A DNA stretch of 64,000 nt from contig NC_054877.1 in NCBI RefSeq assembly GCF_018320785.1, forward strand, positions 41,438,151-41,502,150, given 5' to 3'. The position numbers and the translations under genes are program-made. The first letter of the stretch is position 1. Every line of letters begins with the position of its first letter. Below are positions 743 through 53,056 of this stretch, one piece after another. Under the pieces are notes generated by a model. The model was not told the DNA's origin and searched no databases. It saw nothing but the letters and a program-made list of their open reading frames with translations. This DNA comes from Cheilinus undulatus (taxonomy: Eukaryota > Chordata > Actinopteri > Labriformes > Labridae).

Positions 743-1073
743 ATGTCAAGTATTAATTGTTCGGTGAGAGGATGTCACAACAACTGGAGGAAAAGACGTG
801 AGTTTCTGGAGCAGGAATGTTTCGAACACCGACCCCAACTTAGGTGGCAGTGCTGCGGAGCCCCGTATGATCTTCACTCGCCCCCAAAAGATGAAGAGGA
901 TCGGAGAATGTGGCTGAAGGCCCTCAATCTGAAGAACCCACCAAAAGTCCCGTTTGTGTGTTCTTTTCATTTTGTTGATAAAAAACCTACCAGGGAGCAC
1001 CCTTACCCAGAGAAGTGGCTAGGTTATGATGCTCCTCTGAAGACTCCAAGGCAGAAGTTTGCCAGACATTTAA
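743..1073 (+). CDS. THAP-like zinc-finger protein, first coding exon
   Basis: From the ATG at 743 the frame codes 110 residues with a THAP-like C2CH pattern: Cys6-x4-Cys11 near the N-terminus, then Cys-x2-His in VCSFHF at about residue 73, followed by a conserved-looking tail FVDKKPTREHPYP...LGYDAP. Similar domains (the form with FVDGxPTxxxPYP and LGYD) occur at the N-terminus of transposon-derived DDE proteins in fish. That assignment is from memory. A plausible splice donor (AA|GTAAGG) follows residue 110 at 1074. Without splicing the frame runs to a stop at 1208-1210. An in-frame ATG also lies upstream at 626. The phase after the donor is 1, so it does not join in frame to the phase-0 exons of the gene that starts at 1729. 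No partner exon was identified. It may be the remaining end of a transposase gene or a domesticated THAP gene. Confidence 0.55.
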
Positions 1074-1635
1074 GTAAGGCTACAGTCTATCAAACTGCTC
1101 TGATAACAAACTTTTTATATATCCCATTTGTACACATTTTTTGTGATTTTAAGAATAATGATCGTCTGAAGCAGAGTGTAAACTCTGCTGAAAATACATG
1201 TAGAGTTTAGGCCTGAAATAGTAGCATATTAAAGAATAAAACCACTAAGAGTTAATGCACACCAATTATACACATATTGGAAACATCATACATACTTGTC
1301 TGAAAGGCCAGCACAAGCCAATATGTGTATATTTGTTTAAAAAAATGTTTTTTTGGCTACATGGCATATTATCCAGATACTACTATTTTGTTTTTCCTTA
1401 ATATAAGATGTCATAAGTTTTGTTGAGTCGAGCCAAATGATCCGGTTCACTGAAAAGAGCCTGAACTTCCCATCACTTGCATGCTGCTGTGTTGTGAGGG
1501 CTAAACAGTTTGCGCAAATGTTACGCAGATTGTTGTCTTACTAAAATGGCAATGAAGGTGCATAGCATATCACAGACACATGTTAAGCAATGAATGGGCG
1601 TCAGACTTTTTATACTGACACAACTTTTTCTCTGT

Positions 1636-1728
1636 TTGATATCTGATGAAGAGGAAGACCCATCAGCTTTGACGCCCGTTGGAGGAAGGCATTGCTCGAC
1701 GCTGTTATCAGGAGTAGAGGCACGGAAA
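1636..1728 (+). promoter_or_regulatory. 5' leader/promoter-proximal copy of acin1
   Basis: This block aligns by eye with 10647-10733 upstream of acin1. Shared strings include TGGAGGAAGGC, TTGCTCG and CACGGAAAATGGCGGAT (acin1 has GAACGGAAAATGGCGGAT). Homology in non-coding leader as well as exon means genomic DNA was copied, not a processed transcript. It probably supplies the promoter of the downstream chimeric gene. Confidence 0.65.
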
Positions 1729-4700
1729 ATGGCGGATTACGAAGATGTTAGAGCAGACGGAAACCCTCTCCTTTCCATTCGTATTACCGAGGTTAGAAGT
1801 GTCAGAGAGGAAATGGGGCTGCAAAAGACCGGGGAGAAGATTCCTCTCGTTCAAACGCCTGAGGAGGTGAGTTCTTAGGGGAAGTAACTAACTGTGATTC
1901 TGGCTGATGTCCGTTCGTTACTACCGAGCAATATTAGGTGATTTACAATCACCTCTACTCTGACAACGCGTTTCTTAGCCTCACATTTGCTAATCAATGT
2001 CTCAAGGGTGCACCAATCTAACTTTTAGTGTCGGACATCATAAACTAGTACGTTTATTTGAACGTTTCCGAAGTCGAATCAATTGCTCCTGATTTTCTAA
2101 GGCTCAAATAATCTAACATTTACGGTAATAGCTGTAAATCATGGAAGCCCATTTCCGCCACTTAAAAAGAAAAATGTGGAAGTTAGGCAACTAAGAAAAA
2201 AAAAATCCTATATCATAATCATGAGACAAAAAGTCAAAATTATGAGATATACCCAGCTATTGGAGTTGGTATAGGGGCTTAAAAAGTTGCATTGGTGCAC
2301 TCCCTTATAATAAATGGTTAATATAGAGTGTGTGTATTATTTTCAGGAGGATGATGACGTTTTGGAGGTGCCATTGACGCAACCAGCTCATCTCATTCAA
2401 CCTACATATGAGGCTAAACCATCAGAAGACGCTGGTGTGATGCTGCTGAAGACTCCTGTAGTCTGGTCACCTCATACAGTTAAGGTTGGTTTTACTGTGT
2501 AAACTTCACTCTCACTTATTCCTAAACATGGGATTGTAGCCTGATGGATTATTTAAGTTATTATCAATATGATTTCATTTTTTTCTTCCTCAGGCAGCTG
2601 TAAGCAGATTATCAGCAGTGCAGCCTGCACAGTCAAAGACTAGCCCGCCTGTGCCTTCGGAAACAACACAAGAAAACAATTCTGACACACTGCCAAAAGC
2701 TACAGTAACATGGTCTCCTGTTGCCGTGAAGGTTCGACATCTTGTTAGATATTAATGTAGCTCTAAGTAATGTCTGGCAGCATTGACACTCCTCTTCACT
2801 GTCTCACCCGGACAGGCTGCTGTGAATAGAATATCAGAGAAGCACCAGACTCAGCCCACCCAGCCTGCACTGCCCAGTCCACTTGCAGCAGATAAACTTC
2901 CAGCAGATGATGCTCTAAAGTCAACAATGCCGACTGAACAAAGCAGTGAAGAACTGCGAGAAGAGAGGAGAAGAGAGATAAAGGTAATTATATCAGTCAC
3001 TCAAAGATCTTGTGTTTTTCTAGACAGAAGGCCATCAAATGCCTGCGAATGCATTTTTTAAAGTCATGGAGTGTGTGCCAATGATCAAGTAAAGCTGTGT
3101 ATATAGCTTAAGCAAGCTGTTTGTCTTGTGACACCACTTCAATGTTTCAGATAAATAAAAACAAGCTGTGGAATGCTCATCTTGCACTGTTTATGCACAC
3201 TATCAGGCTGTCTATGTGTGCAGAGTTTTCACGTTATCCTTTACCCCTTTCTACACATTATTTCTGAGTTCTGCAACAGTATAAGAAGTTTTATGAGGGA
3301 TTACTTGTTACTGTGTTACTGTCTTTCTTACAGTCATCGTTAGCAAAAGTAAATTTTGACTGAGTCACAAAATGTACTTTTGCTATCTGTTCCCAAAGTC
3401 TGTTTTAAGATAGGTGAATGGAGTTTCAGGTATGCTGCTCCTGCAGCCTGGAATCTGCTACAGGAGACCTTATGTCTTGTCGATCTTGCAAAGCTTTAAG
3501 CTGAAACCCATGTTCCTACTCTGAGAAAGAATAAACAATTTCAGAGAAGGAAGTGGTAGCTAAGGGTGTGGTTTAATTTCACTTTGAGTCGTTAAACAAT
3601 TGCATAAAGAGACTAGCTCAGATGAAGCTCAATTGACCAACTGGCTCCACTAGTGATGCAGTGTTCATTTTGGCAGCTATTTTTAATTTTGGTCTTAGTC
3701 TTTAGATGAAATGTCTTTAAGTTTTACCCTCATTATAGTCATTTTGAACCCTTTATAGCTTTGCTCTAGTTTTAGTCAACAAGAACTTAAAAGATTTTAG
3801 TCTAGTTTTAGTCCATAAAAGACCTCACATTTTAGTCTACTTTTAGTCCAAGCATTTATTCTCTTGCCTGAATCTGGTATCAAGTCATGGTGTGTTCTAT
3901 GCACTCTGCCAAACCTGGGATCCCTGCTTTCTACATCTGAGAGGCAGAATAACTACAGCTGCATTGTTTCTTGATGGATTTACCCACTGTTGAGAAATAT
4001 CAACTACATTACATTTTAGTCTAGTTTTCATCATCAACTTGACGAAAATCATCAAATTCTTCTAAACTAAGAGAAGATTTGGCACATTTTTCATAGGCGC
4101 AACCCACATTCTCAGCTCTGCTGCTCATCCCACACATGCATGATCCTTACAAATGTGGCATCATTTAAAAGGGTAATAAGCAGGCTTTCCAACAGTATAA
4201 GATTTATTACCAAGAAGCATTGTTACAACAAAGAAATAATGTACCAAACACAAATTGCCTTACTTTTTGTTTTATGTTGAGTTTAAATCAACTTTTAAAG
4301 GGAGCCACTTAGCCCATCTCTGAACTGTTTGTTTTAATGACTTCATAATGAACAATTTCTCACCCTTCACTTCAGAAATGGCAGCCTTGTTGACCTAAAT
4401 ACCCAAAAAATAAATCCAGTTATCCACATAGCTAAATGTTCACAAACGGCAATTAAAAGTTGTAGCTGATTTAATCCTGACACCATAACTTTCTTGAGGG
4501 ATTGTTTTATCCAAAGCTGAAGTCAAACTTGTTTATTGTTCATTAAGATGTGTTAATGCCAACATTTCCATTGTTTTAAAGATTATACAGAATGGACGTT
4601 ACCGTAAGAGCAGAGTACTCAGCGGCCCGTGGAGACAAGTTGGTGGTCTCCTTTTACGAGGAAGGTTTCAACGTCTCCCCAAAGCGTTGATGCAAGTTCC

Positions 4701-5259
4701 TGGATTTAGGGACCACATTGTAGCCGAAGTGCTCAAAGAACTGGACAAAGAATGTGAGACTCTCACCAGTGCAGCATTCAACTCAGCACTTCGAGAGAAC
4801 GACCCCGCAGCTCTGAAAGACTTCAGCTGGGACAGGGTGATCAGAGAGTGGAAGACAACAGCACCCACTTTTCTCAAGTTCCTCCGACGTGCAAGCAAAG
4901 TCTATGAAAACCAGTCGCTAACACCTAAAGACAAGTCATTACCTATGGCCATGGGCGGAGCATTATTATTAAGAGCACGGTCTCCCTGCATGTGTGCTCC
5001 GCAATACATCAACTCTATGATCCTAAGACAGGGAGGGACAAAAAAGAGGTGTGTTTCACGGTTAAACAGACTTGGCCTCTGTATGTCTAACCGCAGGAGC
5101 CTGTTGAGACTGAAAGATGCTAAAAAATCCCAGGCTCCCACGAAGCAAAAACCTGAAGAGACAGATACTGAAATGCCTGCTATCAGTGAAGAAAACAGAT
5201 ATTCAAACAAAGAAGAAGAGGACAGCGATGTTCCTGAGATAACATACATTGTGTCTTAA
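1729..5259 (+). CDS. Chimeric gene: acin1 exon-1 copy joined to an unrelated fish multicopy-type domain
   Basis: Five exons, all split in phase 0 with GT-AG borders: 1729-1866, 2347-2484, 2594-2731, 2816-2983 and 4582-5259, giving a 419-residue protein. Exon 1 (46 codons) is a diverged copy of acin1 exon 1, also 46 codons: MADYEDVRADGNPL against [14 protein letters not shown]. Its SAP DNA-binding motif is eroded, but GLxKxGxK survives. Exons 2 and 3 (46 codons each) end in similar modules, VVWSPHTVK and VTWSPVAVK. Exons 3 and 4 start with AAVSRLS and AAVNRIS. The last exon codes about 225 residues with PWRQVGGLLLRGRFQRLPKA, DFSWDRVIREWKTTAPTFLK and CAPQYINSMILRQGG. I recognise this only as an uncharacterised domain of large fish and invertebrate gene families, possibly linked to mobile elements. 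Its function is unknown. The full set of open frames argues that this is a live gene rather than debris. Confidence 0.72.
3415..3505 (+). repeat. LINE ORF2 C-terminal remnant
   Basis: The translation YAAPAAWNLLQETLCLVDL followed by a stop resembles the 'APxLWNxLP' end of fish L2/Rex-type reverse-transcriptase ORFs. It sits in intron 4 of the chimeric gene (2984-4581). The rest of that intron, including a TTTTAGTC-rich stretch at about 3690-3850, shows no exon that I can support. Confidence 0.35.
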
Positions 5260-5375: not shown

Positions 5376-5381
5376 AATAAA
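5376..5381 (+). terminator. Poly(A) signal of chimeric gene
   Basis: An AATAAA hexamer lies about 120 nt after the stop codon at 5257-5259. It is the first canonical signal in the forward direction. Confidence 0.5.
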
Positions 5382-6000: not shown

Positions 6001-7180
6001 TCAGGTTGAAGCTGTAGAAAGCGATTTATTTTTAGTGTCATATGTCCTCAAAAACAACAGAACCCGTCAGGGTCTTGTTATCGAAGCCATCTAACAGAAT
6101 AACACACTTCTGCAACGCCTCCGCGCTGCACTCTCTCTTAAGGAAAACCAGCAAGGGATGATGCTCCAGCCAATGAGGAGGCTAGTACTCGCAGCTAATC
6201 AAGGCTCAGGTCAGAGGGAGCGTTCCTATCGGCTGCTGTAGTAGGTGAGCTTGTGCCTCTCAGCTCAGTGAGAAGTTGATGCAATTGCGGAGTTACCGGT
6301 GGTGTTCGGTCCTCTGTAGAATTTGTTCATGCTGAGACAAAGTGTTTTCTTACCTGTGATTCGGCCATTGATTTCAGTGGAAAAGCAGAGCAAAATCACT
6401 CCACGAGAGCTTTGCCACTGTCAGTATTGGATTCAGCGGACATGCATAGGAGGAGGTATGAGAGAAGAGGGATGGACTTAGTGCAAATTTTCACTCTGCC
6501 TAGAGCAGTTAACATTTCAATAAAGGGCAAGTGTGATGTTTGCAGTGGAAATATATTTAGGGAATAAACAATGACGTCTCTGGATTAACCTGCTTAAGCA
6601 AGAATAGCGGGCTGTTGCTATAATCCTCAAAGAGCACATACTGTAGGTCGGGGTCCATCAACTAAATTTCTACAAGAGTCAGCTTTTTCCTGTACAGGCA
6701 CTGTCAGGGCAGAACTTTCAAATAAACTAAAGAAATCTTGAAAATAGTCTAAGTGACATATTTTTGTTTAAATATTTTTTTTTCCAATGTCAGTAATTTT
6801 TAGGCTGTAACAGTGAGATCAGTCCTATTATAGCAGCCAGCCACATGGGGGGTGTTTGAGATATTTTAGCTGAATATTTGTGACTGACGTACCTTGACCA
6901 TCACTGGGTTTGACGGTACGTTCTGTGTAGTGATGTGTGAAAATCCCAAGCAGGAAAACTGTACTCTGAAAATGCCAAAAGTCGAAAGTTGACATACAAA
7001 AAGTCTGTTTCTTTTATGATGAATGGAAGGGTAAATGCGTGTTTAATGCAACATATTTGCTAATAATGGCTGATGGTAGATTTCTGAAAAATGGATGAAA
7101 CAGTCATTCATGATGAAGCTGTTACAATCTCATTTGTTTTTGGAGTTGTTTTAATAGCTCCAGTTTATATAAAAAAAATA

Positions 7181-7199: not shown

Positions 7200-9108
7200 A
7201 AAATACCACATTTTGTTTTCCTCTGCACATGTGCTGAATTTGATGATGTTCTGGGGACTGGATGTGACCCCCGGACCACCAGTTGATGATTAAGAAAAAG
7301 GTAGTAGAAGAATTTCTTTTTCTGTGAATAAAATCTTACTTTGCTTTGTTCATCTTTTCACTGGCTTTAAATGTCTAAGATAAGATTTGGACAACAATGA
7401 AACAGTATTGTGACTGTCTTCTGCAGTGTTTTTTTTTTTTCACCACCTACTGCTCGACTTCTTAAAACTTGCGTAACAGTAAAAATCTGTTTACATTTGG
7501 TGATACATTTGAACTAAAACCCCACCATTGTGCTGAATGTTTAAAAAATGCATGAAGGAATTTTTGTCAGAGTTGGCACACTTGCCTTGAGGGTAAACTG
7601 ACTACATTTTGGTTAAGAGTCATGTCTTTATGCATCACTTTGACCCTGATACATGTTACTGGCATTGAAATTCAATGTTTGTGCCAAACATGCACCTACA
7701 ACAAATCTACCGGTCATCACTTCAAACCACCAAGGCCTTCCTCTTTACCCACCACTGCACTTTCACTGATAAGAATGTATTGCAGAGTCATATAGTTCTC
7801 GTTTTTATTAATTTAACCATCTCTACTCTGCACTGTTGCCACATGTTCTTGTTATCTCAAGACAAGTTCATTATGATGTCTGAAAAAAAAACATGAAAAC
7901 ATTAAGCTTTGATATAAAAGGAAAATCCAAAAAATAGTTTGAATAACTTCATAAATTGTGGGAGCGTTCTGATCCTAAAATGAGTGTAAAACTAAGATAA
8001 GGTTTTAGGACAAAGAAGCTAAATCAGCTCTCCTCACATATTTACAGGCAGATTTGAAAGAATCTGTTTAAACAGAGTTAGTTAGCCATTATAAACATTC
8101 ACATTATTCACAGTTGAAGCTGCACCTTCAACATGTCCTCACATAATGACAACAAGAATAGACTAAGATAAATCAAAGATGCTAAAAAAAGATGAAAAGA
8201 AATCCAAAACGAGCCTGCAGCTTTGAAACATGACAGCGATGGGCTACATGATCCTGTTGCTGAAGAGGAGAAAAAACTATGATGAAGCATGAAAAAATAG
8301 GACACAAGCCATGGCAGGCTTCCTTTCACTGTGGTGTGAATTTCAGAGATCAAATCTCTAAAGAGTCCTTCAACACAAAGACAACCAAGGACCATGAGGA
8401 CTCTATGCTGATGGCAGGTTTTGTTTTCACATATTCAGTCAGAGGGAACCTTTCTGGATCCATCAGTTGGATGCATTCATGCACTTCTCAGCTAGAGGAT
8501 TGGGTCCCCAAGGTGAGTCAGATGCTTTTGTGCTCCATTCCCCTAGTTAAACAGTAATTAGTCAAAAAATAAAATGTGTAGCCTACATACAGAATATACA
8601 CAGATTTAATTACTAATTTAACATAGCTGTTTACACAGCTATGTTCCATACCTTCACACAACTTACATATAGAAATGATTGCTCAAATAGCATAAAAAAT
8701 ACAATGTGGAAGATAATTTTTGTTTAGTTAAGGTATAGGCTGATGACCACAAAATAAAGGGAAAATATTTGTTTTTGTATTTAGTGAAAGTATCTATCTT
8801 TTATTTACAGATGTATCATTTAATATCACCTAATCATTGTTATATTTCTACACATTTTGGTGAGGCTACACAGTCTTTCTTTTGGTACATTTGTCAAATT
8901 GGCTTATTCAGTCTTTTCAACTCTGTTCAAACCCCAACTTTGTTTTCTTAAACACAGTACATATAAAAGTGTTCAGCCCTTTTATTGATTTTATAAATTA
9001 ATGATGGTCAGTATAATGCAGCTTTTTTTAAAGTCAAAGTGAAAACAGATTTTTACAAAGTAATGCTGATTAAATAAGAACATGCAATGTGTAAGTGACC
9101 CCTTATCT

Positions 9109-9690
9109 ACCCCCTTCAAGTCAGGATTGGATTGAGGTCCAGGGCCACTCCAGAACAATCACCTTGTTGTCTTTAAATCATTTCTGTGTAGCTTTCGTTG
9201 TATACGTCGTGTCATTGTCTTGCTGGAAAATAAATTGTCCAAGCCGACTGAATACGATTGTCCTCCAGGATTCAGCTATGTTTTGACAAATGTATTTTAC
9301 CCTCTTCCTTTACAAGCCTCCAGGGTCAGCTGCTGAGAAGCATCCCCACAGCATGATGCTACCACTACTGTGCTTCACAGTGGTCTTGCATCTTGTCTGA
9401 TGGTCAGAAAGCACCATTTTGGTCTCATCAGACCAAAGAACTGTCTCCCACTTCACCATGGAGTCTCCCACATGCCTTTTAGTGAACTCTAGTCGAGATT
9501 GTTCGACAACAGTGACTTTCTCTTTGCCACTCTCCCATAAAGCTTTGACTGGTGATGAAGTCAGGCAACAGTTGTTGTATGCAGAGTCTCTCCCATCTCA
9601 GCAGCTGAAGCTTGTACCTTTGTCGAAGAAGTCATGGGTGTCTTGGTGGCCTCTCTCTCTGGTCTCCTCAAACTGGGATGAGAGCTGGGG
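9109..9690 (-). pseudogene. Tc1/mariner-like transposase remnant
   Basis: On the minus strand, degraded pieces of a Tc1-type DDE transposase can be read in order: WETVLWSDETK, GSIMLWGCFSA, FQQDNDTTYTTK and VIVLEWP. The last is followed by a decayed form of the usual DLNPIE motif. The first catalytic Asp (SDETK) and second Asp (QQDND) blocks are visible. The reading frame is broken by stops and indels, so it is dead. Inverted terminal repeats were not located. Confidence 0.8.
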
Positions 9691-10469: not shown

Positions 10470-10733
10470 ACTTTGTTCTCTCGGGCGTCAAGTTTGCGCA
10501 GAATTTGCGCAGAACAAATTAAAAATATTTAAACCGTAAAACCGACGTAATATGTTTAAGGCTAATACATGTTATGCTGATGTTTATTGCAAACTGTTTA
10601 ATTTATTTAAAGTGTAATACAAGAAACGCTTTGTTTTCTGTTATTTGAAGAGGGGGAAGTCGTCGTCGATGACGCTGGCTGGAGGAAGGCGTTGCTCGTC
10701 GCTCTCGCTGGGAACTGACTAGAGGAACGGAAA
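10470..10733 (+). promoter_or_regulatory. acin1: acin1 promoter and 5' leader
   Basis: The sequence turns CpG-richer (TCGTCGTCGATGACGC, GCGTTGCTCGTCGCTC) just upstream of the acin1 start, and the CpG content continues into intron 1. The transcription start cannot be fixed from sequence alone. The same leader occurs, diverged, at 1636-1728. The start context is GGAAAATGGCGG, with A at -3 and G at +4. Confidence 0.6.
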
Positions 10734-13700
10734 ATGGCGGATCTCGAAGACGTTACCCTGGACGGGAGACCGCTCCAGTCCCTTCGAGTTGCGGACTTAA
10801 AGGCTGCCCTTGAGGAAAGAGGACTGTCAAAAAGCGGGCAGAAGAATGCTCTTATTAAAAGGCTCAAAGGGGTGAGTTCTGCTTTGCACTACCGGAGTTC
10901 GGTTTCTGTGAGCTAACGTTAACGGTTAGACGGGCTGATGCTCTCTCGAGGGCCGACAACTGAGTATCGTTACTGCCGAGCAGCGTAGTGGAGTTATCGA
11001 GGTTACCGAGCACTCATCAACTTAAAATGCGTTTCGTTGCAAAACTGTGTGTCTGAGCAGTGTTTTCGACGTGCAGAAATGCATAATTTGCTGCTACGCC
11101 GGGACTTTAATAAACTTAGTGGCTATTCTCAAAGTGAGTGTCGGCTGATGTTGTCCTGTTAGCTCGTTAGCTCCTCGGGCTAACGCGGTGACTTGAGCGG
11201 TGGCCTGGGCTGCTACTGTGTTTGTTACGGTGAGCGGTGTGCACTGTTTGTGTGCGCGAGTTTAGCCGGGAACTTAAATGTTACGACGGTTATTTTAAAT
11301 TCACACGCACAGGACCATTCCTGCATTACATTTATTTTAAAGACAGGAGATTAAGATGGCAAACGTGATAAATAACCATGCTTTATAAGTCAACAAGGAT
11401 CAAAACAAACACGGGCACAGTGTTGCCTAAAGTAGTACTTTGTGCAAGTTTGTGTGGACTGAGTTAGGGTCATTATCATCACATTTTATCTGGTAATACA
11501 TCAAATCATAACGCCAGAAATAAAGCTCCTCAAAACGGCATGTAAAGGGTATCTGTCATGTCATGCACTTGTTGATAGCCATAGCTTAGGGAGGTTATAG
11601 ATGCACTGTAATGCCACCTGAGGCTCCTTTTGCATTTTAGCTTTTCTACAACTGCACCATAAGTGTGCTATTAGAAACACAGTTAAGTAACCTCCCAAGC
11701 TTGTATAAAGTTTGCAACATTTGTCATCACACTGCTCATCCCTGATGCTGTGAACAAAATGTCCTACTTTGTTTTCCAAATTAATACTCCTCATTAGTGA
11801 AAGGGAACGCATGATATTTAGTTTATACAATCAAGACAGGACTGCTCAAGAGTTCTATTTGTGCTCATTCTGCACAGTTCAGGATATACTGAGCAGTTTC
11901 TGTTACCAAGCACTTAAAGAAGATAAGGCAGTTAACTCATCACAGTACATCTAAATGGTCCACAAAAATATTTGCATAATACCCTGTTTTTTATTTGTCT
12001 GAAGCGATCATCAGTTACAGATTTATCAGAGCAGGTGCCACTCAAGCCACAATAGTCATTAAAAATGAAGCAGCTTTGGTTGCATTCAGTGAGCGTTCAA
12101 AAAATGAAGGCTATATTTCGTAGCAGTTTTCTAAAACCTAATGGATAGTCAGTGTTCTGGGACGCAGGGGATCATTGTTCAACCTCCTGAAGGTGTCTTG
12201 GGTCTAACTGAATGAAATACCAGTAAAAGGATATTCCAACTTGACAACCCCGACAAAAAATTGACTTCTTGCCATCCGCTGATCAGCAAAGTTAACTTGT
12301 GGAGACGAAGAGTAAGGATTAAACTCTATTCAGGGACGTCCTCACTGAGCACTTATACTTTCTGTAAAGCAAAGGTTTATTGTGTTTTCTTAGAAATGTA
12401 CAGCTGGGAAGTCTGGATAACTTCCCTTTTCTCCAAATTGCTCCATGCTCCATTGCTCCAACTGTTTACATTTGTATGAGTGTTTATTATCTGTAGATAT
12501 GGCATAATGTGTTACCCCTTTGTCACATATCATATGTCATATATCAGGCACAGTCATTTTGCTTTTTGATGCCACTTAACATGCTACATTTGTGTCACCA
12601 TTTGTTGTATGACTTATTGCATGTTAATGCTCAAGTTGGGAATTATGGTACCATTAAACAAAATTCAAAGTGCAGTGTGTTATGTTGATATATGCAACAC
12701 TATTCAATTCTCTTGAAAGAGTCGCTCTAGCCTGTATGTTTAATGTAAGGCACTATTACCGAACCTGACAATGTTGGCTGTGGCTGTGATGCTGAATGTT
12801 ACTTTCTCATTCATATAAATGACATAAAGTTACACAAAGATACGGCATAGTAGCATTGGAAAACGTGAAAAAATATGAATTTACTGTCACCTTGTTAATT
12901 GTTTTCTAAATTACCAATAGCAGCTTTGCCATCTCTGAAAGAATCCCTGCCTGTTTTTACCTTGAGTGATCACGCTCTCCTGTTTCAATAACAGGCTCTC
13001 ATGCTGGAGAACCTGCAGAGGACCTCCACCGCTCACATTGGGCTGCAGCCAAATTCACAGGTAAGTGTCTCAAAGAAGCTGAAATTTAAATACCTAAATC
13101 TTTTTGTATTTCTTAACCACTTTATTATAGATATAAGAACCGTTGCACAACTCACAAAAATCTCTTTAAGTGTTTGTGGATGGCCTTGAAGGCTTCATTT
13201 CTATTTTAAATGGGTTTTCTGTATTTAGATTGGTGAGGAAATGAGCCAGAACAGCTTCATCAAGCAGTATCTGGCTAAACAACAGGAGCTCCTGAGGCAG
13301 CGTCTGGAGAGAGAGGCTCGTGAAGCGTATGAAACAAATGGTAAGAATTAAAGAAAGTGAGTTCTTTACATCTTCCAATAATTTTCGATGCTTTGGGAAT
13401 TTATTCACTTCTCTTTTAAAACAGACCAAGACGAGGACCACACAGAAGTCAACAACAGTATGATGTGCCCATCTCAAGCCCAGGTCTTACATCATTCCTT
13501 TTCTTACCTTTTGTAACCATTTACATGTTTTGCCTCTTTGCTGATTGTTCTTTGTGTGAGCAGAGTTTATGTTTGGTATTTACCTGGAGGATTGAAGATA
13601 GCTTAGAAACACAAACATGAAGCAGCAGCTGTGAGCCTAACTTCAGCTGCAATAAGACCCATCGACTAGAGCAGTGGTTTTCAAACCCTTTTCCCCCAAG

Positions 13701-16700
13701 GCACACCATATTCATTTTTATACAAGATAGCCTCTTTGAAACATGTTACAGTAATTTAAGTTGCAGTAATATCATATGATTGTAGAAATTCTCACTGTAA
13801 ACCAAGTCCCGCTTGCCTTGCCACTCCATTTGAGAGCCTCTTGACAAGGGGATGGCACCGAACTGCCCACAGTAGATTTCTCACTCTTCTACTACAAATA
13901 AACCATACGGTTGGAATTTGTAGATTTAATTGAACAGCAGCTGCAGTTGAGTTCACCAGCTTATGAGAAACTGGATGGCAAAACTCCAGTTTTATTTGAA
14001 ATGTTGAGTTTTAATGTGTTGTCTACTGCTGGTTAGCTACATTGGTTTGTTGGTGTTTTCTCTGGAGGTAGGTCTGGGCAATATGGCCTTAAAATTCATA
14101 TAGCAATCTATTTTTGCTATAGCGTGGTACACTACATATAGATATATCCCAATATTTAGAAATCTCCTCTAAGTAGTTGTATAATATTTAATTCAGCCCT
14201 ATGAAACATGAAATGACACCAGTATGATGATTAAAAAAAAGACCAATCTATTTGATTTTTTTTAACATTTGTATGCAGAAAGGATAAAAATCATTATCAA
14301 GTCAAATTTAGCACCCTCACCAATCCTAAGATGCAGCCGATGGCCAAAACACTGCAGTCTAGTCCACCCATTCAGGCTCACAGGGATCTTGCCTCAAATC
14401 AGGCTTAAAATCCTGTAGTGTGTGGCCAGCCTTAGTGAAGAGTCAGTTGCAAAGAAGTTGGTTGCTGGATCAATAAACTGGATAAAGAAGTCCTTGAAAG
14501 AAAATTAGTCTCATCTCTGTTTCTGTCCTCATCAGGGCGTTACACCAGCACTGGGTGAGCAGCATAAGCCCCCTGGCCCTTCTGGCGGAGAGGGAATGTT
14601 CGGTGCAAATGCGGGACAACTTCACAGGAACCAGGATAGTGAAATGTCTGCTTCTGGTTCAATGCGTGTTCCTGGTGGTGCGCAGCGACTAGAGAGGGGC
14701 TCTGCATCCAATGAAGTTGATGACGACAGCGATGAGGAGGATAGCGAGGATGCTGAAGATGACGGTGATGACGATGACGATTGGGACAGCGGTGCTCGGA
14801 GGAGAAACACCAGAGAGCCAGCCAGAGTGCCAACAACAAGAGAGAGGTCTGGTGCTTCCTGTCAGCCCCAGCAGCAGCAACAGCACATGCCTTCCCTTTT
14901 GTCCCCACAACTCCGCCAGCCTACACCTCCTCCCTCCCCACCTCCAGAGCTGTCGTTTCCCTTACCTGATACCCCTAAGCAGAGCCCCCCTAGTCCAGAT
15001 GTAGCCCAACCTCAGCGTTCACCAAGTTCCTCTAGCTCTGGTTCCTCCAGCAGTGGCAGCCGCAGTAGCAGCCCAGAGCCACAGAGGAGTGGACACGCCG
15101 AGCGCAAGCCTGGCCCACTGACCCTTCTGGCCAGAAAGATGGCATCAGAAGGGGCTTTCTCAGGAGCAGGTTGGCACAGTGGCGCTGGGGGAGGCGATGG
15201 GCAGGACAGCACTTCACCTTTGGCCACATCGTTTCCTGTTAGAGGGTCTCTGGAGGGTTCGGTATCAGCCATCAGTCACACAACCAACACTGCAGGCCAT
15301 GCGCCACCATTTCCCATGATTCCAGGCACCAACCAGGGTGTCTCAGGAGCACATCCAACCCACGTTCAAGTATCTGTGAGTGCACTAAAAGCCTCTGCTA
15401 CAGAAGAGAGGGACAGAGAGAGGGACTCTGAGATAGAGAGAGAAAAAGCTCTTGAGCTCGAGAGGCAGAGAAAACTTGAACAAGAACGAGCAATGGAGGA
15501 AGAGCGCCAAAGAGCTCTTGCTCGGGAAAGAGAGGAGAGAGAGAGGGCTTTGGAGAAAGAGAGAATTGAACGCCAGCAGGCCTTAGAGAGAGAGGAACGA
15601 GAGAGGGCTTTGCAGCGGGAGAGGGAGCTCGCTCTAGAACGAGAGAGGCAGGAAAGAGAACGAGCTTTGGCTAAAGAGAGGGAAGAGCGTGAGCGAACCC
15701 TGGAGCTTGAGAGGCAGAAGGAGCTCGAAAGACAGAGGGCTCTGGAGCTTGAGAGGCAGAAAGAGCTTGAAAGACAGAGGGCCTTGGAGCTTGAGAAACA
15801 GAAAGAACTAGAACGGCAAAGAGCTCTGGAGCTTGAGAGACAGAAGGAGCTGGAAAGACAGAGGGCCTTAGAACAGGAGCGTCTGCAGAGAGAAAAAGAG
15901 GAGCAGGAGAAAGTGATGGAGCAGGAAAGGAAAGAGCGAGAGAGGTTAGAGAGAGAACGAGCTCTGGAGGCAGAGAGGGAGAAAGCTTTAGAGCTAGAGA
16001 GAATCGAGAGAGAGAAAGCCTTGGAACAAGAACGACTGGAGCGAGAGAGAATTGAGAGGGAGAAAGTCTTAGAGCAAGAGAGGATAGAGAGGGAGAAAGC
16101 TTTAGAGCAAGAGAGAATTGAGAGGGAGAGAGCCTTGGAACGAGAGAGGATTGAGAGGGAGAAGGCCTTGGAACAGGAGAGGATAGAAAGAGAAAAGGCT
16201 CTTGAGCAAGAACGACTGGAAAAGGAGAGAGCTCTAGAGCGAGAGAGAATCGAGAGGGAGAAAGCATTGGAGCAAGAAAGAATTGAGAAAGAGAAAGCCT
16301 TGGAACGAGAGAGGATAGAAAGAGAAAAGGCTCTTGAGAAGGAAAGATTGGAGAGGGAGAGAGCCCTGGAACAAGAGAGGTTAGAGCTTGAGAGGAAGGA
16401 GAAGGAGAGAATAGAAAGAGAGAAAGCACTTGAGCAAGAGAGGATAGAGCGGGAGAAAGCCTTGGAAAGAGAGAGGTTGGAGAGGGAGGCAGCTCTGGAA
16501 AAGGAGAGGAAGGAGAGGGAAGCAGCTTTGGAAAAGGAGAAGAAGGAGAGGGAGGCAGCTCTGGAAAAGGAGAGGCTGGAGAGGGAGGCTGCTCTGGAAA
16601 AGGAGAGACTGGCGAAGGAGGCTGCTCTGGAAAAGGAGAAAGCTGAGAAGGAGAGGCTGGAGAGGGAGAAAGCTGAGAAGGAGAGGCTGGAGAGGGAGAA

Positions 16701-19700
16701 AGCCGAGAAGGAGAGGCTGGAGAGGGAGAAAGCTGAGAAGGAGAGGCTGGAGAGGGAGAAAGCCGAGAAGGAGAGAAAAGAGAAGCTGGAGAGGGAAAAA
16801 ACCTTAGAACAAGAGAAACTTGAAAGGGAGAGAGCCTTGGAGAAAGAGAGGAAGGAGAAGGAGCTAGAGAAAGAGAAAGCCCTTGAACAGGAAAGAATAG
16901 AGAGAGAAAAAGCCATGCAGAAAGAAAAGGAGGAACAGGAGAGAGCTCTGGAGAAGGAGAAAGAGCGATCTAGGATGGCTGAAAAGGAGAGGGAGAGTCA
17001 CCTCCCTCCATTCAAACGTGGCCGGGAGATTGGTCTCACATCCACTGCTCCCCCCCTCTCCACAGGACCAGGTAGAAATGCATCCACAGAGGCAGCAGAA
17101 CAGGAAGATGTCAGCGCTCCTGTGTCCAGGAGTGAAGCAGCAGAATCTGGTGCAGCCATGTCAGCAACTCCTCTGTCACCTCAGTCCTCGTTCAAGAAGT
17201 TCCGGTTCTTTAGAGACTCCCCAATTCAGCCCCAAACTTCTTCCATTTTCATTAAGCGGCCTAGAAACTTCTCTGATACTCCCCAGCCTTGGGCCTCACC
17301 TGTCCCTGCTAATGTTGCGGAGCAAGGACACAAACCCTCCACTGAACAGGAGGAACCCCAGATGCAGACAAAACCAGAGAAATCTATGGAGACCCAGCCT
17401 GAAAAGGAGACCACAGTGGGTACCAAACCTGTCCAAAGTCCAAAAAAAGAAGAGACAGCAAACCTCTTACCAAAGGACAGCCACAAAGCGAATTCAGAAA
17501 AAACTCAACACACTGATATGGAATCCACTCAAAAAGAAAAAGAGGTTGATGAAAGGAGTCCTGCAGGCCCAGTAGACGATTCACAGCGCAGGGGCAGAGA
17601 TGCAAAGAAAGAGGATAAAAAACAAAGAAAACGTTCATCATCGAATGATTCGTCTTCCTCAGACTCAGATTCTGGGTCATCATCCTCTCGATCCTCTAGC
17701 TCATCATCATCATCTCAAGAGAAAACTCCCTCCTCAAGAGATAGAAGGGTAAGTGGTGCAGAAGGAATCTTTATCTTTGTCCAGGACATGCAGTACTCCA
17801 AGGCAGGGTATGAGCATATTCATATAACCAGCACAATCTAAGCATGACATGGTTTACAGTTACATTTACTCGTTTGTGACAAGTGAATTCATCTTAGTTT
17901 TAATATCTGTAAGAGTTGGAGTGATGATCATTATTAGTTTAAACTCCTGCCCATCAGATGGCACTGGCATGGGGGGAACCTGTTGCATTCAATGGAAAAC
18001 TCTAATGTTGGGGAATAATAGCTTTGTTACATTAGCCAGAACTTATTACCAAAATCCAACAATACTAATACATGTTACTTCATCATGGCAACAAAAATAT
18101 AAGCCACAGATGCTCAATATTATGTGGTTGCTTCTAAATCTCCTCAGAGATCAAGAAAATTCACGGTCAAAACTGCAAAAATGCAAGCATTGCCAATGCA
18201 TTTATGCTGCATCTCTGCTCTTTAGTTTTAAAGGCCATCGTCTTACTTTGCCATTTTCATGAGAAGCAACTGCATTAAAATTAGGACCAACCCCAGTTGT
18301 ATCATTTAAAGCCCCTCCCTTTAAATACTATCAATCATTAATTGATCAATAATATAATTTAAAACAAGTGTTATTGAGAAGTAGAAAACATTTTTACAAC
18401 TTCAGGGGACAATAGGTCTGCAATTTAAGAGGAAAATCAGTGACATGCAAGACTATTGATTCCATAATGACAAAAGAGCTTACAAAGAATAAGCAAATAT
18501 TAATGACTGGACGATAGCACAAACTTCCTTTGGCTATGTGGCTTTAGCATGCTTTACACACTGCCTGTGTTTGTAACGTATTGTCTAACATGAATTCAAA
18601 ATGTTAGGGATTTTGTTTTGTTCACAGCTTTTTTTTTGCAGCCAGATTGTCTGTTCCCGTCACCCCTTCCACAGCCGTTATGTTGGCTCACCTTCCTGCC
18701 AAAATGTTACCTATTAATCTTAGAGAAGCTGACTGCTAGCTGTGGCCTTGTCTCACTTGCTGTCACATTAAACTCCCTCATTATCCTACTTGAGTGTCTT
18801 TTTTTTTTTTTACCTTGCCACCAACATTTGACATTTATCCTTGTCTGTCATGCAAAAATAGTGTCCATCCTGCACATATTCAGCCATGTAACATGTAGTA
18901 TCTTTCCAGCCAGGCTGCTAAAAGTACTGTTAGCCGTTTCGGTCATGGCATGCTGTTCTTTGCATTCAACTTGTCATTAACAGGTTGTTACAATATTGCT
19001 GCTCAAGTTTGTGGTCATGTTTTTAAGATTTAAAACCTCCTTTTAGTTTGTCATTAAAGCATTGTATTGTGGATGTTGTTTAATGATATATATTCTGAAG
19101 CTGATGCAGTTCAAAAACTGCTGAGATTTAACTCATAAAAACTATTTTGAAAATTAAAGAATGAAAACAGAAAAAAAGAGATTTTGACCTTTTGCTTTTC
19201 AAAAGGTAGGCATTAATCTCTTGTTTACATGTGTACCTTTAGTACCTTTAAAAACACATCAATCAGATAGTAATGCATGGGTGAAGGGATTCTATTAACA
19301 GCTACACAATTGAGCAATTTTGTTTCTGTTTTGTATCTAAGCCAGTGCATTTGCTAATGCTTTGTTGTCCGGTTCTTTTAGGAAGGCAAGTCTGAAAGAG
19401 AATCCTCACTACAGCAGAGGGTGACACTAGAGGCTCGGGATAAAGATTCAAAGGAAGCTCCAAAAGCATCCCCTCAGAAATCGGTCGAGAAGAGTGACAC
19501 AACTGCTGATGAAGACAGACAAGCCAAGGTCAGTCGCGAAAGGTTTTTTTCCTTACATCCATGACACAGTGTGTACCTCCATCTTACCTAGTATTCTTAG
19601 CTCTAAGAATTTTTTACCTAAAATCAAAGACCTAGAAATCTCCAGTTCACTTTTAACTTGTGTTTATTTTCCTTTTGCTTGTTTCAATGTAAATACTCAA

Positions 19701-22700
19701 ATTGATGTCACAGTTATCATTACTTACTTGACTCTCTTCTCAAATCCCTAGAAAAAGTTCAATGAAGCACTGTCCAGAGAGGAGCTGCAGAGGAACAGGA
19801 AGGACAGCAAAGAAGAAGAGGGAAAGGACAAGCACAGGTTTGATTTAAGTTTCTGGTCTTCTAAAACATGCCCTTCACATTGTCCCTATGAATTATACTG
19901 TGGTGGTGGATAAATCTGTGTCCTCACAGAACTTGTATGCAGCCTGTAAACACAGAGCCTGGTTACAGTCACTCTATATTTGACACCTGCTGTATCGTCA
20001 GTAGTGTCTGCAGCCATTATTTATGGCTGTATTTCTAGGGTTAAACTGTATTGCCACACTACAAAAGTTTTATGAGGCTATTCCTATTTGATGACAGGTT
20101 CATGATTTAAAAAGCCTTCCAAACAGTTGTGTGGGCTTTTTGAAGTTCTCTCATTTTACATATTGGTGTGCTCTTAGCTAGTTTGCATCTGATTGGGCAG
20201 TGTTCTTGTTGGTGCTTGTTCTTGTTGACACTTTCCTCAAACTCTTTAGAAATGGCATGTGTTAATATATGAGCAATGCTTTACCTTTGTAAGGGAAATA
20301 TATGCCAACTATGTTTTCCATTTTATATCAAAGAGCTGCTCTTTCTAGCTTAATCATGAAGGGCACTGTGCCATTAATTTGCTCTGTAGTGTTTTGGTTA
20401 ATGTCTGTTCTGTTTGCTAGTTATGTCAGTTCTGTGACTGACTGCCGACCAGTTCGGGGTGTACCCTGGCTCTGTTCTAATGACAGCCCACACCCAACCC
20501 ACCGCATTGAGGATTGGGTGTGGGCCGCATCATGAGAATCAATCAGGTGTGAGGAGTCCAGTCATGATAGTGTCCGCATTAAATGACTATGAACCACAGA
20601 GAGCGTTGCAGTTACATTTTGTGCTGTGGATGGTTTTCTGCTCTTTCATTGTTTTACCAAGTCATTATCAGCATCCCCACCCAAGGCTTAAAATGCTTGC
20701 TTTATCATGCATTTATTTACATGGCATGCTACTTAAAGTGATCTCAGTCAGCAGCTCTCTGTCCAGTGATACTCAACATGTGGCTCTAGAGCCACATGTG
20801 GCTCTTTTGTGATTATTTGTGGCTCTTTAATGTATTAATTTTAAATATTATTCCCCCAGAAAACCTTTAAAAAGGGAAACTTTTTGCCATTTTCACCATT
20901 TTTGCCACTTCTCACTCATTTAAGCTATCTTTGGCCATTGAACACCCCTTTTTTCCTATTATTTGCAGATTTTTGCAACTTCTTTTTGACATTTCCCCCA
21001 TTTTTGTCCTTTTTTAGCCTATTTTACCACTTTTTGCCCATTTAAGCTACCTTTTGCCATTACATACCATTTGTTTGCTAATTGTTTTGCCTATTTTTGC
21101 CACTCTTGACCGATTTTTGCCCATTTTAGTCACTTTTCACTCAATTCTTTGCCAAGTTTTTGCCACTTTTGGACCATTTTTGCCATTTGTAACTCATTTT
21201 TTGTCACTTCTCACCCGTTTTTGTTCCTTTCTGACCATTTTTTCATTTTTTCTCCCAATTTTTACCCCTTCTCACCCATTTTTGCTGCATTTTGACCATT
21301 TTTGCCACCCTAAACTTATTTTTATTGCTATGTCAAGCCATTTTTGCCTATTTTTACCACTTAGATTGTGGCTCTTACAAAGATATTTTTCAGTAATTTG
21401 TCTCTGGTTGAGCAGGGTTGAATAACACTGTCTCTTGTCTGTCATTCAGTGTGCTGTAAGCAGGTGTGTGACACAATCATAATCAGTCCATGTCCATTAA
21501 TAAATGTTTTCCTGACCCCTTTATGAATAAAAATTGGGATGATATTGAAATAAAACAAGGTTACTTCTTCATTGCATGACCATGTATCACATAAATTATT
21601 TCCATTTTGGAACATGTTTAAATAACATAATTTGGATATTCTTACCAGTCTATAACCAAAGGTAATGTAACCCTGTCATATATTATATAGCATATGGGCA
21701 GGCTACTTTTAAAAGCAACAGCTGTATGATATCTGTTAATAGTCCAAATCTTAAAATAAATATTACTGTGTAAAAATGTGCTTGATTGACACTAAAATAG
21801 ATTTTAAAACACAGAAGAGGGCACGGTTTTAAGTAGCAGTTTGACAGTACTGTGAGCAACAATAGGTGACACATTTTCAGTGTGGGGGATTGGTTGAAAA
21901 GTTGAGAAGCTCTGACTTTACTGTATCTCTTAAATGTCCATCAGACCTTACATTACTGTGTTGAACTGTGTCAAATCTCCGATTTGTTTAGTTGCAGTTG
22001 ATTATGTCGGCGTATGTTACACTCCGCTGTTATGCCATCCGGCAGCTTTTTTCCAGGCAGAACGGTGTTTTAAGGATGTTGTGAGAGATGCTGGGTGTTG
22101 AATTTCCCATCAGGCAATTGATGAGGCTGCCTTGAAGCCGGTGTGGCTGAGATGATGTGGGTCCTTTCCATACGCTATCTTTTTTTCCCTCATCGTTACA
22201 ACATGGCTGAGCTCCGTCGATGGCTGTAGCTGCTGATGCCGGCCTGTGGTTTTCATCCAGCGGTTCAGCTCGACAGCAGGCGGGGGTTTGTGTGACAGCC
22301 CGCACGGACATGAAAGCGTTCAGAGAAGAGCAGTCTCTGGTGAGAGGAAGGTAGGAGGAGGGGAGAGAGCTGCCTCGTTGCGTCGCAGTCATTTTATAGC
22401 AGCAGCAGCAGATTGTGTGCTGCGTTTTAAGTTAATGCAAGTCGGGATGAGGAGACGTGTTCACATGCGCGCGCATGACAGGAGAACGTGAGGCGCGCGC
22501 TAATTTGTCAGGTATTGTGCCGCGATAGGTGAGTGTTTGGCTGGGCTGGAAATGAATAGAAAGGTCTGGATGGACTCAGTCAAGGAGGGCTGCGGTGGCT
22601 CTGCATTGCTTGACTTCTCTCCTTGGCTCAGTTTTTCGGAAACCCCTTTAAAATTTAAATGCAATATATTTTTAAATAGACGAAGTTGCTGTTGTCAAAA

Positions 22701-45597: not shown

Positions 45598-53056
<7,459 letters not shown>

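Follow-up and report, generated by a model that had tools for sequence, protein, structure and literature searches.

The window analysed here is the stretch C13:41438151-41502150 (64,000 nucleotides) of the 1.17-Gb Cheilinus undulatus genome assembly, which consists of 46 contigs. Its plus strand carries a gene that we take to be acin1, judging from its SAP exon and from its resemblance to the N-terminus of Acinus. Upstream of acin1, on the same strand, lies a five-exon gene model that begins with a diverged copy of the acin1 first exon (Table 1). A 1110-codon open frame at 14509-17841 (+), which encodes a long Glu/Arg/Leu-rich repeat and gave no Pfam match at E 0.1, presumably also belongs to acin1. 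On the other side, about 4 kb before the window, lies a gene for a DUF4508 protein, which we take to be the C14orf119 family and presumably the head-to-head neighbour of ACIN1 in human. Here the DUF4508 gene and acin1 are likewise found head to head, now approximately 15 kb apart and with two frames between them. As these two genes flank it, the new gene probably sits between two ancestral neighbours.

Table 1. Positions of the predicted chimeric gene, its source and neighbouring or related loci (window coordinates unless another locus is named).
Feature	Position	Strand	Basis or remark
DUF4508 gene, two exons corresponding to the two domain halves	L003 3783-5951, ~4 kb before the window	-	Pfam, E 9e-11 and 1e-15
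Intact single-exon THAP-domain ORF	743-1210	+	E 1.1e-6; CpG peak 501-800; ATTAAA 1228, AATAAA 1235
Copied acin1 promoter/5' leader, within CpG-rich 1501-2100	1624..1728	+	Aligned to 10629-10733
Exon 1 (46 codons), copied from acin1	1729..1866	+	20/46 residues shared with acin1 exon 1
Copied start of acin1 intron 1, donor GTGAGT	1867..2098	+	Gapped shuffle test; donor score
Exon 2, phase 0	2347..2484	+	Frame; repeat across 2484|2594 junction
Exon 3, phase 0	2594..2731	+	Frame; repeat across 2484|2594 and 2731|2816 junctions
Exon 4, phase 0	2816..2983	+	Frame; repeat across 2731|2816 junction
Exon 5 with stop codon	4582..5259	+	Frame; distant relatives on C7, C14, C10
AATAAA polyadenylation signal, downstream of stop	5376..5381	+	Sequence motif
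Source: acin1 promoter, exon 1 (10734-10871), start of intron 1	10629..11164	+	Alignments; SAP in exon 1
Exon 5 relative split between two frames, then DUF6589 with internal stop	C14:1.08 Mb (L032/L033/L037)		

The first-pass annotation had proposed that the acin1 leader, the 46-codon first exon and part of the following intron were duplicated from 9 kb downstream. Comparison of 1500-2150 with 10500-11150 at the DNA level bore this out. The local alignment covered 1624-1876 and 10629-10881 with a score of 109, which is not a chance result, as the maximum among shuffled sequences was 29 and none of 300 shuffles reached it. By blastn the identity between 1670-1875 and 10670-10880 was 69.3% (E 7.8e-17). 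The leader alone and the coding part alone each scored above all 300 shuffles. For the intron part strict scoring gave a borderline result (reached by 4/300 and 1/300 shuffles), while a gapped collinear alignment of 1879-2098 with 10908-11164 scored 320 and was reached by none of 1000 shuffles, by a narrow margin (maximum 318, mean 234, standard deviation 18). Collinear similarity to intron 1 thereby extends about 220 bp past exon 1. Between 2020 and 2340 no similarity to the acin1 intron was found (408 of 1000 shuffles reached the score), and upstream, at 1480-1623, similarity to acin1 was marginal (50/1000). From the borders of similarity in the leader and the intron, the copied piece is therefore approximately 0.5 kb long.

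Chance similarity is ruled out by the blastn E value and the shuffle tests, and a near-identical duplication arising in the assembly is ruled out by the 69% identity. A search of the whole genome with 1500-2150 at the DNA level returned the segment itself and acin1, and no further copy. The exon 1 protein matched the neighbouring acin1 on C13 (48%, E 1.7e-5) and, less closely, the C22 paralogue of acin1 (40%, E 0.025); a third match was at chance level (E 7.1). The C22 paralogue was rejected as the source, since the C13 gene is closer both in protein and in the leader, where 69 of 102 ungapped columns agree with C13 acin1 and 45 of 102 with C22. That the acin1 promoter and first exon were duplicated, in the same orientation, to a site some 9 kb upstream is thereby confirmed. 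A piece of an interspersed repeat was observed at 1418-1477, some 150 bp upstream of the copy, with at least 40 other matches (40 of 407 candidates were scored).

The predicted start codon of the chimeric gene is the ATG at 1729, which corrects the first-pass annotation. The earlier description of an intact joined frame with GT-AG borders holds: each of the five exons has a length divisible by three, every predicted junction is in phase 0, and the joined frame has 419 codons with a stop codon at its end only. Splice sites were scored by a generic vertebrate-type weight matrix, with donors ranked as percentiles among the GT sites of the window. The donors at 1866, 2484, 2731 and 2983 were at percentiles 99.9, 96.6, 88.6 (the weakest) and 99.1, and the acceptors at 2347, 2594, 2816 and 4582 at percentiles 95.6, 100, 94.1 and 93.0. 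A repeated motif spans the junctions 2484|2594 and 2731|2816 (score 67, maximum among shuffles 54, 0/2000). Over 21 codons this junction-crossing repeat has a dN of 0.26 and a dS of 1.08, and the resulting dN/dS of approximately 0.24 points to selection at the protein level over two of the four predicted junctions.

The copied exon could also serve acin1 itself as an alternative first exon, skipping exons 2-5 and giving an Acinus without SAP. By eye, its phase 0 fits acin1 exon 2 and exon 2 of the new gene equally. However, an intact frame with a polyadenylation signal lies in between, and exons 2-5 would be left without a first exon in a CpG-rich stretch. We therefore consider such use by acin1 extremely unlikely and retain the five-exon gene.

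The exons that follow exon 1 had been described as unrelated to Acinus, and this agrees with the searches. Within the remainder of the window exons 2-5 had only matches at chance level (E 0.18 or worse), and in the genome exons 2-4 together with the start of exon 5 matched, besides themselves, two sequences weakly (E 2.6 and 7.9). The last exon, on the other hand, had been assigned to a large uncharacterised fish family, and in this genome the family is small to the extent that these searches detect it. One direct relative of exon 5 was found, on C7 (32%, E 2.8e-5). With the C7 relative as the query, C14 was matched in two frames (65% and 62%), along with a broken copy on C10 and exon 5 itself, which gives four loci including exon 5 (one found directly and two through the C7 relative). 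One of these has DUF6589 behind it: on C14 a DUF6589 match with one stop (C14:1083826, E 3.9e-15) is located 2.4 kb downstream of the exon 5 relative. This was the sole DUF6589 match reported genome-wide, with two candidates scored. No DUF6589 match was found near the chimeric gene, and no part of the C14 locus that was used as a query, DUF6589 among them, matched the window at E 0.01. Exon 5 is distantly related to the sequence preceding DUF6589 on C14. Its structure model was poor (mean pLDDT 46.6), and no relative was found among solved structures at E 1. The frames upstream of the relatives on C7 and C14 look alike by eye. A zinc-finger-associated domain was considered for the upstream frame on C7 and rejected, as Pfam gave no match.

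The copied segment is rich in CpG. The CpG observed/expected ratio (o/e) was 0.92 both in 1501-1800 and in 1801-2100, compared to a window mean of 0.32 (300-bp windows), and 0.96 over 1624-2100. Among 1271 windows of 477 bp, 20 had an o/e of 0.96 or more, all of them at 1.6-1.7 or 10.2-11.0 kb, corresponding to the copy or the acin1 promoter. The o/e of the copy is thus far above that of its surroundings, as in a CpG-island promoter. As a point against, such CpG density is not confined to the copy and the acin1 promoter: two other 300-bp windows, 501-800 in the THAP region and 22301-22600, also attained an o/e of about 1.0. Outside the window, in locus L003, the o/e was 1.32 beside the DUF4508 gene (6001-6300) and 1.07-1.18 in 8101-9000, which is 1-2 kb upstream of the window and where no gene was recognised. 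The latter stretch contains AAGATGGCGGC-like sequence that resembles the start region of acin1.

In the core alignment 9 of 17 acin1 CpGs were kept as CpG in the copy (6/16 for GpC as a control), and in the longer alignment 14 of 36 (GpC, 11/35). CpG was accordingly lost no faster than GpC, unlike the expectation for a methylated dead copy, which suggests that the copied promoter is active in the germline. Against this, half of the core losses (4/8) had turned into TG or CA. The copy could instead be the remnant of a dead promoter and exon that lies upstream of an unrelated gene by chance. The exon has indeed drifted, and CpG-rich sequence with no recognised gene occurs nearby, but the retained CpG density, the top-class donor and the frame-specific conservatism of the changes in exon 1 described below leave such a remnant hardly credible. 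The segment most likely belongs to a functional chimeric gene, as far as can be judged from its sequence.

The intact THAP-domain frame upstream of the copy offers a different 5' end, in which 743-1073 would be the true first exon, spliced into the copied leader near 1652, and the acin1 piece would be internal. The THAP domain (E 1e-6), a 97th-percentile donor at 1074, an AG at 1650-1651 in matching phase and a frame that is open from 1594 agree with such an arrangement. The acceptor is however weak (79th percentile, score -1.4), and the THAP frame has its own stop codon, polyadenylation signals and CpG peak, so that it has the appearance of a complete gene with a single exon. For these reasons the THAP exon was rejected as the first exon, and we regard it as very unlikely. 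A THAP relative, followed by a DDE_Tnp_4 transposase-like frame, was observed at C14:2.19 Mb (L021 756-1064 and 3753-4046).

With the copied exon as the first exon of the chimeric gene, it is of importance whether it is translated. In acin1, exon 1 matches SAP with 44.9 bits (E 8e-12, Pfam). The copied exon, with its 20 of 46 identical residues, gave no Pfam match at E 1, to SAP or otherwise. A single-sequence structure model of it, too poor to be informative (pTM 0.21), had no SAP-like helix pair, and a comparison with solved structures gave four matches, all at chance level (E 1.4). The acin1 paralogue on C22 was used as an outgroup to assign the changes. The copy alone differed at 11, 14 and 6 sites in codon positions 1, 2 and 3, C13 acin1 alone at 1, 1 and 5 sites, and all three sequences differed from each other at 1, 0 and 8 sites. 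At positions 1 and 2 acin1 is nearly unchanged (25 copy-only changes vs. 2 in C13 only), and it is the copy that drifted. Between the copy and acin1 dN was 0.40 and dS approximately 0.75, while dN was 0.08 and dS saturated for the C13-C22 acin1 pair. The duplication is thus younger than the split of the acin1 paralogues, but a dS of this size also means that it is not recent, and the gene is new in a relative sense only. For the copied exon against acin1, dN/dS was 0.53-0.58; with acin1 nearly constant at codon positions 1 and 2, this places the branch leading to the copy close to neutrality in rate. A three-way MAFFT alignment including C22 had no gap run in the 138 coding nucleotides, two in the leader and six in the aligned intron part. 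Since the local aligner, unlike MAFFT, put gap pairs of net length zero into the coding exon, the indels were taken as description only.

These rates could mean that the copy contributes a promoter and a 5' untranslated exon only, with translation from a downstream start such as the in-frame ATG in exon 2. In agreement with this, codon positions 1 and 2 changed about as readily as other sites and SAP was lost. In simulations of neutral change at such divergence, the ATG, the GT and a stop-free frame all survived in 4-17%; the open frame alone is therefore weak evidence for translation. The length and phase of exon 1 were however kept exactly, and its amino acid changes were conservative. Their mean BLOSUM62 score was 0.04 compared to -0.73 under neutrality (p 0.006 in the acin1 frame), while the same test in the other five frames gave p 0.07-0.96. 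Over three transition rates, p was 0.006-0.010 for the whole exon and 0.004-0.008 for the SAP part, and the share of positive-scoring changes gave p 0.024-0.032. This frame-specific conservative change, seen with a single type of test over 46 codons, is the main evidence suggesting that exon 1 is translated. We find an untranslated exon unlikely and prefer translation from the copied ATG.

Taken as a whole, we consider it probable that a piece of acin1 of about 0.5 kb, comprising promoter, leader, exon 1 and the start of intron 1, now forms the 5' end of a gene distinct from acin1. Transcription would start within the CpG-rich part of the copy, its donor at 1866 would be spliced in phase 0 to 2347, translation would begin at the ATG taken over from acin1, and the mRNA would end after the AATAAA at 5376. 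The predicted product is a protein of 419 amino acids, which may be expressed broadly like acin1. Its N-terminus would have drifted beyond a detectable SAP domain, and its C-terminus would consist of the domain that in one relative precedes DUF6589, here without DUF6589. These features make a small protein with a nuclear or regulatory role, and not an enzyme, the likeliest product. Promoter and first-exon capture, as suggested in the first-pass annotation, remains the best reading with respect to CpG density, conservative change, donor strength and constraint across the junctions, with the word new qualified by the dS. There is about an even chance for the wider proposal of a long-lived fish gene, in which exons with a DUF6589-type, perhaps transposon-derived, fragment captured the promoter and exon 1 of acin1, a housekeeping gene related to splicing, and in which the N-terminus is still translated and was reshaped under selection into a non-SAP sequence.

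Two routes may have led to this arrangement. A tandem duplication may have taken in parts of two neighbouring genes and later been reduced by a deletion, or the 0.5-kb piece may have been inserted in front of a gene that was already there. A plain tandem duplication predicts that the partner exons occur a second time, upstream, but searches of the window and the genome found no such copy. Either it was deleted later, or the 0.5-kb piece was inserted alone.

Chimeric genes formed by partial duplication are an already known kind, of which the predicted acin1 chimera is a good example. It has homology to the parental gene in its 5' part, including non-coding sequence, and an unrelated 3' part in an intact joined frame, as expected for a chimeric gene formed by partial DNA duplication. 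What it shares with acin1 is the leader, exon 1 and the start of intron 1; everything after exon 1 differs, and SAP is undetectable. With the DUF6589 locus on C14 it is linked by exon 5, which by way of the C7 relative is distantly similar to the sequence ahead of DUF6589, and it differs in having no DUF6589 match. According to a study in Drosophila yakuba, chimeric genes arise there from tandem duplications that cross gene boundaries, 24 of 76 chimeras have raised expression, and in one case the duplication was followed by a deletion (Rogers et al., 2017; PMC5460883). The fish locus resembles those chimeras in combining the 5' end of one gene with the 3' part of a second gene in the same orientation. 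The D. yakuba chimeras described there segregate within the species and are supported by RNA, whereas the fish copy is old and known from its sequence; unlike a plain tandem duplication of the D. yakuba type, the fish locus has no detected second copy of the partner exons. For zebrafish chimerical genes, which are also new chimeric genes of a fish, retroposition is named as a mechanism (PMC3091775). Here the copied piece contains promoter and intron sequence, and it was therefore copied as DNA and is not a retrocopy. No description of an acin1 fusion was found in the literature searched, which mostly lacked subscription journals.

The locus illustrates how fragments of genes may gain expression by borrowing a complete housekeeping promoter together with a ready-made start codon and donor. 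Because the parental gene and its copy are neighbours, it allows a direct comparison of decay in promoter, exon and intron, and what became of the captured domain, where SAP was lost with conservative drift, can be traced across related fish.

Two further features of the window were observed. A candidate Tc1-like transposase fragment at 9310-9597 (-), assigned by a motif, had no Pfam match at E 0.1. On the minus strand, frames with matches to matrixin, hemopexin and DUF3377 at 45598-51356 presumably represent exons of a membrane-type MMP gene.
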